From: an uncultured Methanobrevibacter sp.
GTDB lineage: Archaea; Methanobacteriota; Methanobacteria; Methanobacteriales; Methanobacteriaceae
DNA: 58,012 nt
Assembly (NCBI RefSeq): GCF_902764455.1
Contig: NZ_CACWVY010000019.1
Coordinates: forward strand, 1-58,012
Direction: 5' to 3'
Shown one piece after another: positions 13,617 through 44,673 of this stretch; position 1 is the first letter of the stretch, and every line of letters begins with the position of its first letter. The translations under genes and the position numbers were made by a program. The notes beneath the pieces were generated by a model. It searched no databases. It was not told the origin of the DNA and saw only the letters and a list, made by a program, of their open reading frames with translations.

Positions 13617-14348
13617 CTAAAAATCAAATTTTTCATCATCAGGAATGACTCTGTTATACACTTCTATGTAAGCTTCCATAACTTCGTCGTCTTTACCTTT
13701 TCTAAATAATTCCTTGTCCAACATTTCCAGTGTTTCACTGTCCCATAATCTGCATCCGTCAGGAGATATCTCATCACCCAAAAGAATATTTCCATCTTTA
13801 TCCTTACCGAATTCGACTTTGTAATCAACCAATATGATTCCGGCATCTGCAAAGAATTCTGTCAGGATTTCATTGATTTTCAATGCCTTTTCAACCAGAA
13901 TATCAATTTCTTCGTCGCTGGCTATTCCTAATGCCTTTATAAGGGAACGATTAAGCATAGGGTCATGATATTCATCATCCTTATAATCCATTTGAACTAT
14001 TGGGGGATCCAATTTGGTTCCTTCTGAAATTGGGTATTTGCGAACCAAACTTCCTGTTGCTATATTTCTTACAATAACTTCGATTGGAATCATTTCAAGT
14101 TTTTTTGCAAGCATTACGTTAGGTTCGGGAAGGTCAATAAATTGAGTTTCAATGCCGTTTTCTTCTAAAACTTTAAAGATTTTAGCAGATATAATTGCAT
14201 TGTATGCTCCTTTTTTGTTCATAACCTCTTTTCTCTCACCGTCACCAGCAGTGATGTCATCTCTAAACTCGATAATGACCTGATCTTCGTTATCGGTAGT
14301 GAATACACTTTTTACTTTTCCACCGTTAATTAACTCTTTTTTGTCCAT
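13617..14348 (-). CDS. purC: Phosphoribosylaminoimidazole-succinocarboxamide synthase (SAICAR synthetase)
   Basis: The 243-residue protein shows SAICAR synthetase motifs: GGKVKSVF, RDDITAGDGER, GIETQF, PIEVIVRNIATGSLVRKYPI, DYKVEFGKD and DEISPDGCRLWD. It couples CAIR to aspartate in purine synthesis. It is the first gene of the five-gene minus-strand run ending in glmS. A TATA-like TTTATATA is centred about 55 nt upstream of the ATG. Confidence 0.96.
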   Translation of the reverse strand: MDKKELINGGKVKSVFTTDNEDQVIIEFRDDITAGDGERKEVMNKKGAYNAIISAKIFKVLEENGIETQFIDLPEPNVMLAKKLEMIPIEVIVRNIATGSLVRKYPISEGTKLDPPIVQMDYKDDEYHDPMLNRSLIKALGIASDEEIDILVEKALKINEILTEFFADAGIILVDYKVEFGKDKDGNILLGDEISPDGCRLWDSETLEMLDKELFRKGKDDEVMEAYIEVYNRVIPDDEKFDF

Positions 14349-41616: not shown

Positions 41617-41857
41617 GAATTTAACTAATTTTTCAACATTTTAATTTTATTTTTAAGTCTGAGAATTTCAGCTTCAGCATTATCGGCCCTAATAATAACC
41701 TCATTCAATTCTTTTTCAAGCTCAATAATTTTATTTTGTGAAATTATTTCAGTCTCAAACCTACCAATAACCTCATCAGCAGCTCCATCATTTATCATGC
41801 ATATTAACCCCAAAAATTCTTTTACATGAAAATTCAAAGTTACTCAAAAATCATTTA
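41617..41857 (-). repeat. Rpn 3'-end repeat, copy A (241 bp)
   Basis: This copy shares long identical blocks with copy B at 41858-42105 and with the 3' end of the Rpn gene at 42106 onward. It differs in the segment coding the C-terminal tail. It encodes a possible 57-residue peptide from ATG 41798: MINDGAADEVIGRFETEI..., then a coiled-coil-like IIELEKELNEVIIRADNAEAE tail. Confidence 0.9.
41625..41798 (-). CDS. Orphan Rpn C-terminal module A (57 aa)
   Basis: An open frame from ATG 41798 gives MINDGAADEVIGRF, homologous to the Rpn C-terminus, then heptad-like residues ending LRLKNKIKMLKN. Upstream residues in frame (VKEFLGLIC) are also Rpn-like but only reach a TTG. GGGG lies 9 nt before the ATG. 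It could be an expressed small protein, or a cassette or remnant that is not translated. Confidence 0.4.
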   Translation of the reverse strand: MINDGAADEVIGRFETEIISQNKIIELEKELNEVIIRADNAEAEILRLKNKIKMLKN

Positions 41858-42046
41858 GAATTTAACTGATTTTTCAACATTTTCACTATCAGCCCTAGAA
41901 GCCTCACTATCCGCCCTAATAGCCTCACTATCCGCCCTAATAATAACCTCATTCAATTCTTTTTCAAGCTCAATAATTTTATTTTGTGAAATTATTTCAG
42001 TCTCAAACCTACCAATAACCTCATCAGCAGTACCATCATTTATCAT
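41855..42046 (-). CDS. Orphan Rpn C-terminal module B (63 aa)
   Basis: It has the same N-terminal part as module A (MINDGTADEVIGRFETEIISQ). Its tail consists of 7-residue repeats RADSEAI/RADSEAS and it ends ENVEKSVKF, the same end as the full-length Rpn protein. The start ATG 42046 has GGGG 9 nt upstream. The expression status is unknown. Confidence 0.4.
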   Translation of the reverse strand: MINDGTADEVIGRFETEIISQNKIIELEKELNEVIIRADSEAIRADSEASRADSENVEKSVKF

Positions 42047-42105
42047 GCATATTAACCCCAAAAATTCTTTTACATGAAAATTCAAAGTTACTCAAAAATC
42101 ATTTA
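41858..42105 (-). repeat. Rpn 3'-end repeat, copy B (248 bp)
   Basis: Direct repeat of copy A and of the Rpn gene end. The block coding ELEKELNEVIIRAD through the MINDG region and the spacer (TTACTCAAAAATCATTTA) is nearly identical to copy A. The difference in length comes from the number of 21-bp heptad units. Confidence 0.9.
41882..41944 (-). repeat. 21-bp minisatellite encoding SEAIRAD heptads
   Basis: There are three tandem 21-bp units: two nearly identical (CTCACTATCCGCCCTAATA core) and one diverged. Each codes for seven residues of a probable coiled coil. Copy A has one such unit, and the full-length gene's own end has none. The unit number therefore varies between the three copies. 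Confidence 0.85.
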
Positions 42106-42885
42106 GAATTTAACTGATTTTTCAACATTTTTTTTATTTTGTGAAATTATTTCAGTCTCAAACCTACCAATAACCTCATCAGCAGTTTCATTATTTATCA
42201 TGTTTATTAACTCCTCATATTCTTTTTCATCCGCAAAATATGCATCAATCATCGCATATAATACAGAATATAATGTATATTCTAATTTTTTTGGAATTAC
42301 CTCAATTTTCAAATATAATTCAATAACTTGTCTGGTTACTTCACGAGCTGTTTCTCTTTGAGCAAATATCGCAACAATTCCCAAATTCAAAGCTTCATTT
42401 ATGGTTAAATGCTCTTCGTTAAAATTGATTTTATTTTTTAGCATATTTAATCTTTTTTGATTGTCTTCGGCTCCAAGATCCAGGAATAACAGTTTAGTTA
42501 TTGATGTTGGTGTCCTCTCAAATTCCTGAACAGATTTTTCTGGACTTAAATGTGATGCAATGACATTTAATGAAGGCAATCTCTCATCAGCTATTTTCTG
42601 AGTTTCATAATATCCTATTGTTTGAATTTTAGGTATGTCTACCTCTTTAGATTGATGTTCCAAAATTACAACAGCAGGCCAGAATAATCTCACATAATCC
42701 GGATCGACAACATATGAAGCATCCATCTCCAGTTTGGTTCCATCCTTAAGACGAACTTTTACATTGGATTTTCTTCTAAATATACCCGGAATATCCAAAT
42801 TCTCATGCAACTCCTTTGGAAATTCATTATACAATACACCAAATGCAAAATCAAAAGGATGGTGAATTTTTTTCTTTCTTGCCAT
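42103..42885 (-). CDS. Rpn family PD-(D/E)XK nuclease (PDDEXK_2 / putative transposase-like)
   Basis: The 260-residue protein has the Rpn pattern: HHPFDFAFGVLYNEFP, MDASYVVDPD (first acidic site), VVILEHQSKEV (E-x-Q/K catalytic strand, about 72-82), GYYETQKI and SLNVIASH. Rpn proteins are DNA nucleases that promote recA-independent recombination, and in E. coli they are toxic defence proteins restrained by an intragenic C-terminal antitoxin. GGAG precedes the start. Inside the gene a GAGGAG lies 9 nt before the in-frame ATG at 42201 (MINNETADEVIG), a possible internal start. The last about 18 residues look grafted compared with copies A and B. Confidence 0.85.
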   Translation of the reverse strand: MARKKKIHHPFDFAFGVLYNEFPKELHENLDIPGIFRRKSNVKVRLKDGTKLEMDASYVVDPDYVRLFWPAVVILEHQSKEVDIPKIQTIGYYETQKIADERLPSLNVIASHLSPEKSVQEFERTPTSITKLLFLDLGAEDNQKRLNMLKNKINFNEEHLTINEALNLGIVAIFAQRETAREVTRQVIELYLKIEVIPKKLEYTLYSVLYAMIDAYFADEKEYEELINMINNETADEVIGRFETEIISQNKKNVEKSVKF

Positions 42886-43110: not shown

Positions 43111-44673
43111 ATGAACAGAAAGTATCTGATTGCAGCAATTGCAGTCGTAGTTATTATTGGTGTAGGAGCATTTGCACTTTCAAACAATACATCATCACAA
43201 ATGACAAATTCTGTTAATATCGATGCAAATGCACTTGAAAACATGGGAAATATTGTAGTAAACGCTAGCGATGAATCCAAAGAAAAAGGATTGATTTCAG
43301 CTAGTTCAAGTGATTTGAATTCTATTTTAGTAACAAATAATGGTAAACTGACTTTAAAAAATTCACTGGTTAATAAAACCGGCGATACACAGACTTCAGG
43401 AGATGATGCTGACTTTTACGGCGTCAACTCAGCAGTTCTGGTTAACACAAATGGAACATTGGACATTTCAAATGTTGAAATAAATACCAACTCCAAAGGA
43501 TCCAATGGAATTTTTGTAACTAATTCTGAAGCTTCAAGCAGGGGTTCTTCACAAGGGGGAGCTTCTGAAGGTTCACAACCTCCTGAAGCAACCGGCGGAA
43601 ATTCATCCCAAGGAGGAGCAGGAGGACAACCTCCCGAAATGCCATCCGGAAACGGTTCAGGTGAACAGGGAGGAGCAGGCGGACAACCTCCTGAAATGCC
43701 ATCCGGCGAAGGGTCTGGTGGAAATGGCGGCGGACAACCTGGCCAAAGCAGTGTTTCAGGAACAACCGAAGCAACCATTAAAAATGTGAAAATCACAACT
43801 CACTCCGACAAGTCAAGAGGTCTTGATGCAACATACAGCGGTAAGATTAATGCTGAAAATGTAATTATCAACACTGACGGTCAAAGCTGTGCTGCTCTTG
43901 CAACTGACCGTGGTGAAGGCCATGTACATGTTAAAAACTCTGAAATCAACACAGGCGTCAGTAAAACCAGCGGCAGAGGATCACCTTTAATATACTCAAC
44001 AGGAAACATTACAGTGGACAATACCAAAGGAACCTCTTACGTATCTCAGATAGCTTGTATTGAAGGTAAAAACTCAATTGATGTGAAAAACTCTGACTTG
44101 AGCGGTTATGGTGAAGGTAACAGAAAAGATGGTGATGATTACGTTGATTTGGGAGGAATTTTTATCTACCAGTCAATGAGTGGAGACGCTGATGTTGGAA
44201 CATCCCACTTTACTGCTGAAAACTCAAAACTCTCAATTCCTAAAGAATCATCTGTTTTCTCCGAGGCTCCAATGTTTCACGTAACCAACACAGCATGCGT
44301 CATTGATTTGAAAAATACTGAACTTAGCTTTGGAAGCGGAACCTTTTTAGAAATTGCCGGTCAAAACCAATGGGGAACCACAGGTTCCAACGGAGGAGTG
44401 GCTGAGCTGAATACAGATAATGAAAAAATAGACGGAAACGTTATTGTCGATTCAATAAGTTCCCTTAACTGGACCATGAAACATACCGAGTTTAAAGGAG
44501 CAATCAATTCTACCGGTAATACTACAGTTAAAGTTGTCGACGGTTCAAAATGGACATTGGCTGGTGACAGTACAGTATCCGGCCTGGAAGTCAACGGTGA
44601 AATTGACTACGGTAATTTTACATTAACTGTTGACGGTAAAACATACAACAGTTCAAATCCTTTTAAAGGATAG
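43111..44673 (+). CDS. Secreted/anchored beta-helix surface protein with Gly/Pro repeat linker
   Basis: The 520-residue protein has an N-terminal membrane segment (LIAAIAVVVIIGVGAFAL, about 5-22). Then come parallel beta-helix-like rungs (LKNSLVNKTG, LDISNVEINTN, IKNVKITTHS, INAENVIINTD, VHVKNSEINTG, IDVKNSDLSG). Residues about 147-213 are a Gly-rich linker with GGQPPEMPSG repeats. The C-terminal WTLAGDSTVSGLEVNGEIDYG part is like that of many gut Firmicutes surface proteins. The function is unknown, perhaps carbohydrate or host binding. The style of the linker suggests exchange with gut bacteria. Confidence 0.75.
   Translation: MNRKYLIAAIAVVVIIGVGAFALSNNTSSQMTNSVNIDANALENMGNIVVNASDESKEKGLISASSSDLNSILVTNNGKLTLKNSLVNKTGDTQTSGDDADFYGVNSAVLVNTNGTLDISNVEINTNSKGSNGIFVTNSEASSRGSSQGGASEGSQPPEATGGNSSQGGAGGQPPEMPSGNGSGEQGGAGGQPPEMPSGEGSGGNGGGQPGQSSVSGTTEATIKNVKITTHSDKSRGLDATYSGKINAENVIINTDGQSCAALATDRGEGHVHVKNSEINTGVSKTSGRGSPLIYSTGNITVDNTKGTSYVSQIACIEGKNSIDVKNSDLSGYGEGNRKDGDDYVDLGGIFIYQSMSGDADVGTSHFTAENSKLSIPKESSVFSEAPMFHVTNTACVIDLKNTELSFGSGTFLEIAGQNQWGTTGSNGGVAELNTDNEKIDGNVIVDSISSLNWTMKHTEFKGAINSTGNTTVKVVDGSKWTLAGDSTVSGLEVNGEIDYGNFTLTVDGKTYNSSNPFKG
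43612..43706 (+). repeat. 57-bp imperfect direct repeat coding GGAGGQPPEMPSG
   Basis: Two copies begin at 43612 and 43669. Each contains GGAGGAGCAGG, then GGACAACCTCC and GAAATGCCATCCGG with few synonymous changes. It lies within the linker of the beta-helix protein and could expand or contract by recombination. Confidence 0.8.

Follow-up and report, generated by a model that had tools for sequence, protein, structure and literature searches.

Organization of the locus

The window analysed here, a stretch of 58,012 nucleotides from an uncultured Methanobrevibacter sp. (contig NZ_CACWVY010000019.1), belongs to a 2.75-Mb draft assembly of 85 contigs. In an alignment query of genome contigs, the named relatives of this genome were Methanobrevibacter, several of them from the ruminant digestive tract. 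On the minus strand, a gene for a 260-aa protein precedes two stand-alone copies of its own 3' end, cassette B and then cassette A (Table 1). These copies had been noticed in a preliminary description of the sequence, and their direct-repeat spacings of 241 and 248 bp were confirmed. The cassettes are 98% identical to each other across 206 nucleotides, far above chance. As first described, they differ in the number of 21-bp units encoding SEAIRAD: about three are present in B, about one in A and none in the main gene.

Table 1. Features of the Rpn-like locus, in coordinates of the window
Feature	Position	Strand	Remarks
Rpn-like PD-(D/E)XK-type nuclease gene (RpnL-like)	42103-42885	-	260 aa; EMD and EHQS catalytic-type motifs intact; C-terminal coiled coil truncated
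Internal Shine-Dalgarno, GAGGAG	42211-42216	-	9 nt upstream of ATG 42201
Internal ORF (RpnS-like)	42103-42201	-	conserved ATG 42201; 32 aa here, 57-127 aa in most relatives
Eight-A run at deletion junction of main gene	42128-42135	-	ancestral frame lost downstream; NVEKSVKF replaces MLKNQLNSK
GGGG, weakened Shine-Dalgarno of cassette B	42056-42059	-	duplex energy -5.9
Cassette B, stand-alone C-terminal ORF	41855-42046	-	ATG 42046; 63 aa; about three 21-bp heptad units; frameshifted end
SEAIRAD-encoding 21-bp units of cassette B	41883-41945	-	2.9 copies at 41883-41942
GGGG, weakened Shine-Dalgarno of cassette A	41808-41811	-	
Cassette A, stand-alone C-terminal ORF	41625-41798	-	ATG 41798; 57 aa; ancestral frame kept through the coiled coil; CAG to TAG removes the final five residues

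The GAGGAG situated 9 nt before an in-frame ATG of the main gene was likewise found as described. The ATGs of both cassettes keep this register, but the GGGG that precedes them is a weakened Shine-Dalgarno sequence rather than an absent one, with a duplex energy of -5.9 compared with -6.7 in the gene. The neighbouring gene at 43111-44673 encodes a predicted secreted, repeat-rich protein without a confident Pfam match, and its homolog is kept next to the Rpn-like gene in three relatives.

The main gene had been read as intact, with an exact ENVEKSVKF ending shared with copy B. The part common to both is NVEKSVKF, preceded by a lysine in the main gene and by a glutamate in copy B, and the main gene is truncated. 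Its orthologs are about 305-311 residues long, of which about 60-80 form a coiled-coil tail; the closest of them, in genome G021, is 84% identical and 310 residues long, with a heptad coiled-coil end (...SRLRDEIEMLKSQLNSK). NVEKSVKF is an out-of-frame reading of the ancestral end MLKxQLNSK. In the frame of the ortholog, AAAATGTTGAAAAATCAGTTAAATTCTAAATGA is read as KMLKNQLNSK followed by a stop, and the ortholog itself ends with EMLKSQLNSK and a stop. Because the DNA encoding NVEKSVKF is the ancestral MLKNQLNSK end in another frame, the ending is a scar and not a motif. In the main gene, SQNK leads through the run of eight A into NVEKSVKF. Copy B ends with SENVEKSVKF, its frame shifted like that of the main gene, and copy A remains in the ancestral frame up to its early stop.

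The predicted internal product of the main gene does have the length of about 32 residues first proposed, and it is this short because the tail of the main gene is broken. In the predicted structure of the window protein (pLDDT 89) the C-terminal helix ends at residue 257, and the full-length ortholog from genome G035 is predicted to form a single long helix from residue 236 to 303. In another member of the family (L047, G035:C33) the tail of the main gene is frameshifted, and the downstream cassette has a normal end.

Relation to the Rpn nucleases

The Rpn-family identity proposed for the protein is supported by profile comparison and weakly by a fold search, but Pfam and NCBIfam do not recognize it. 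Comparison with a profile of nine canonical Rpn proteins, including E. coli RpnE, gave a match of 97.8% (E = 1e-12, 224 columns), which stops at the internal start of both families. Scans of Pfam, NCBIfam and PHROGs returned no useful family for the window protein; there was no NCBIfam match at E<=1, and thus none to TIGR01784. When solved structures were searched by sequence, the matches were mainly coiled coils, and no Rpn relative was among them. A query of the genome contigs with the single protein gave no match, whereas a query with the alignment did. In the fold search against solved structures, several PD-(D/E)XK restriction, repair and defence nucleases were near the top; all matches were weak (best E 0.034, none with E<0.001), so the placement in the PD-(D/E)XK superfamily relies mainly on the Rpn profile comparison. 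The likeness to this superfamily consists of the predicted core and the conserved EMD and EHQS motifs. Judged by these comparisons the family is treated here as Rpn-like. No work on archaeal Rpn proteins was found in the open-licence literature.

In E. coli, both internal (gene-within-gene) and stand-alone RpnS proteins have been published (Zhong et al. 2023, PMC10327210), and in RpnA the border of the same C-terminal part carries an internal Shine-Dalgarno sequence and start (PMC10327210). The nearest E. coli cases are rpnE with the downstream ypaA (rpnES), and rpnC with rpnCS. The window locus resembles them in having a nuclease with a putative internal start at the C-terminal domain boundary, a Shine-Dalgarno sequence that overlaps the coding sequence, and additional stand-alone C-terminal copies downstream, with a repeat number that differs among copies. 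It differs in being archaeal, in having two cassettes and a broken main-gene tail, and in the missing match to TIGR01784, which together with COG5464 describes RpnL/RpnS. The C-terminus of the window family is one long heptad coiled coil, whereas E. coli RpnS is a three-helix domain with four-residue repeats. That domain is absent from the full-length ortholog, whose single helix has seven-residue repeats.

Canonical Rpn genes are also present in the genus. A search with TIGR01784 (T_den_put_tspse) was performed on 67 genomes, and among the 150 matches listed, 51 were small frames containing the C-terminal part only, in 36 genomes. In the genome of the window, the TIGR01784 matches are on contig C12 and not in the window. 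The region at G000:C12:3000-7000 (L106) contains a canonical Rpn gene and two stand-alone RpnS genes, both with strong Shine-Dalgarno sequences (-8.6 and -9.3); the numbers of four-residue repeats differ, and the sizes are 67, 63 and 79 aa. The two loci of this genome thus share an internal Shine-Dalgarno sequence and start and two downstream stand-alone copies, and the canonical genes are set apart by four-residue EGRE-type repeats, intact ends and the TIGR01784 match itself. Across the genus, canonical Rpn cassettes are mostly intact, many with strong Shine-Dalgarno sequences, and the layout of gene and cassette also occurs in the single-contig genomes G007, G002 and G004.

Internal start signal and cassettes among relatives

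An alignment was made of 70 genes of the family from the genus, in which a Shine-Dalgarno sequence was scored when the duplex energy was -6 or lower at the right distance. The C-terminal part usually starts at a methionine (or leucine) codon inside a K-E-L-L-x-M-like motif. A Shine-Dalgarno sequence precedes this conserved position in 49 of the 70 genes, against a rate of 5.5% at 13,827 control positions taken from these genes. The two signals occur together: the Shine-Dalgarno sequence is found in 47 of 60 genes with the start codon and in 2 of 10 without it (p=6e-4), although related sequences are not independent, so that p values are indicative and the evidence for the internal start is statistical. 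Where a glutamate codon lies within the Shine-Dalgarno sequence, it is GAG and not GAA in 43 of 45 genes, and in 13 of 13 among representatives with less than 50% identity; elsewhere GAG makes up 17% of glutamate codons. This synonymous bias is hard to explain by constraint on the protein. An internal translation start that would yield the C-terminal protein, first noticed as a candidate in the window, is strongly supported across the family at the level of the sequence, by the Shine-Dalgarno signal and by synonymous codon choice.

Homologs of the window gene were found in 38 of 67 congeneric genomes. A downstream copy of the gene's own C-terminus is present for 26 of the 68 genes with downstream sequence; for none of the 68 is there a downstream copy of the N-terminus, and one copy reaches into the middle of the gene. 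No upstream copy was found at the 26 loci. The cassettes derive from the adjacent genes; at 21 of 25 loci the sequence most similar to the cassette is that of its own gene. The codon at the start position is retained in 25 of 26 aligned cassettes. Some of the cassettes of relatives are intact, and several are broken by frameshifts or stops. The dN/dS ratio between cassette and parent is 0.48-0.63, values that constraint on the main gene alone could explain and that are no proof of the cassettes being under selection. The same analysis gave no support for strong purifying selection acting on every cassette.

The surroundings are partly conserved. Genome G035 has the same gene order of SNF2 helicase, Rpn-like gene and homolog of the 43111 gene, with one cassette. 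In G021 the Rpn-like gene adjoins the 43111 homolog in the same orientation, and its one cassette lies at the contig end. Contigs stop within a cassette at L007/L038 (G021:C130) and L019 (G020:C23); since assemblies break at the cassette repeats, cassette counts are lower bounds. A relative of the window gene (L009/L037, G057:C33) lacks a cassette and flanks the 43111 homolog from the opposite side, so gene position varies between species. In two genomes a near-identical arrangement was observed (L055, G051:C14; L056, G037:C31), in which the main gene ends with KVVEDD and its stop overlaps the start of the cassette (..GAAGATGATTGA..), an overlap that looks like translational coupling.

Role of the stand-alone copies

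The best explanation, to which we assign a probability of about 0.6, is that the window contains a partly decayed archaeal toxin-antitoxin locus of the RpnLS type with duplicated stand-alone antitoxin genes. The long protein would be a nuclease of the Rpn kind, and the conserved internal start is predicted to produce its C-terminal part alone. This small protein would pair with the long one through the coiled coil and so restrain the nuclease. A partial tandem duplication from around the internal ribosome-binding site would have given rise to the stand-alone antitoxin-type genes A and B, which probably share a transcript with the toxin gene. In their presence, a deletion would have removed the coiled-coil tail of the main gene and put its end out of frame; the end of copy B is shifted in the same way, and copy A would be the best-preserved antitoxin. 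The sequences show the architecture, the conserved internal start signal shared by gene and cassettes, the derivation of the cassettes from the adjacent gene and the truncation. That the small proteins are translated and bind the nuclease, that the nuclease is toxic, and that the locus has any antiviral role are predictions. If RpnS binds the tail of RpnL as in E. coli, an RpnL without its tail may be left unbound.

That the cassettes are stand-alone small inhibitors, as was suggested at the outset, is in keeping with the published E. coli cases (PMC10327210) and with the many relatives that have them, but cassettes are decaying in several of these relatives. A point against an antitoxin role is the repeat number, which seldom equals that of the neighbour; in E. 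coli, inhibition is reported to be lost when a single repeat is added (Zhong et al., PMC10327210). In the window family, none of the 15 archaeal pairs examined has a cassette product and a main small protein of equal length; for 7 pairs the difference is exactly 7, 14 or 21 residues. Among 22 canonical pairs (21 archaeal and one from E. coli), only two have repeat regions of the same length, as read by eye from alignments that are approximate across repeats. Loci of rpnE and ypaA in E. coli (L105, L126-L137) were sampled from the 5,391 genomes in which a match was present; at those with two copies, the repeat numbers of rpnE and ypaA match in 0 of 10.

These length differences would suit a second explanation, already raised in the preliminary description, in which the cassettes would serve as a reserve of alternative tails. 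By recombination or deletion between gene and cassette, the full gene would acquire another end with a different count of heptads, which would change the RpnS that can restrain its product. In its broader form, stand-alone RpnS copies in archaea and E. coli would be a local tail library with varied repeat numbers, not redundant antitoxins, and recombination would rewire the pairing of toxin and antitoxin. The indirect support for it comes from two observations. First, the cassettes of the window and G021 look orthologous, as both have INDG in place of INNE, yet the residues that follow match each genome's own main gene (VIGRFE in the window, IVGKFE in G021), which suggests concerted evolution of cassette and main gene. 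Second, fusions of the end of the stand-alone copy to the full gene have been described in E. coli (Zhong et al., PMC10327210), and in three sampled one-copy strains the full rpnE gene carries that end (LAANNH), with no repeats in one, main-type repeats in another and cassette-type repeats in the third. Exchange of a tail from cassette to gene thus occurs in nature, at least through deletion. However, a hand count puts the matches expected from random pairing in this E. coli set at about 6%, so 0 of 10 is no sign of matching, and it is no sign of avoidance either; active avoidance of matched repeats was accordingly rejected. The exchange may also be a by-product of tandem repeats. Both forms of this explanation are possible, and although we consider each of them rather unlikely, the tail library is a serious competitor.

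As serious a competitor, and equally unlikely, is the explanation that the cassettes are non-functional debris that decays neutrally, left by partial tandem duplications that would be frequent where 3' ends are of low complexity. The broken cassettes in G035 and elsewhere, the modest dN/dS, and the shifted end of B and early stop of A would agree with it. Against it, copies are exclusively C-terminal and downstream, the start of the cassette coincides with the ribosome-binding site, and the canonical Rpn cassettes of the genus are mostly intact. For aligned codons, dS is also much higher than dN in G035 (0.64 and 0.03) and at L065 (0.49 and 0.02).

An assembly artefact, in which short reads collapsed or misjoined copies to give a truncated gene or duplicate cassettes, is very improbable: the assembly is fragmented and the G021 and G020 contigs terminate within a cassette, but the architecture recurs in other assemblies, its presence with canonical Rpn genes in single-contig genomes means that misassembly cannot explain the general pattern, and A and B, having different ends, are not a simple duplicate.

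The reading of the locus as an RpnLS-type toxin-antitoxin system would add methanogenic archaea to the hosts of gene-within-gene antitoxins, on DNA-level evidence of an internal start and in a family that is unnamed in Pfam and NCBIfam and has a different antitoxin architecture, a coiled coil. Stand-alone antitoxin copies are a frequent outcome, and their purpose as spare antitoxin, tail library or debris is now testable. If the tail library were true, recombination of the RpnS copies with the full gene would be a switching system for a defence nuclease.
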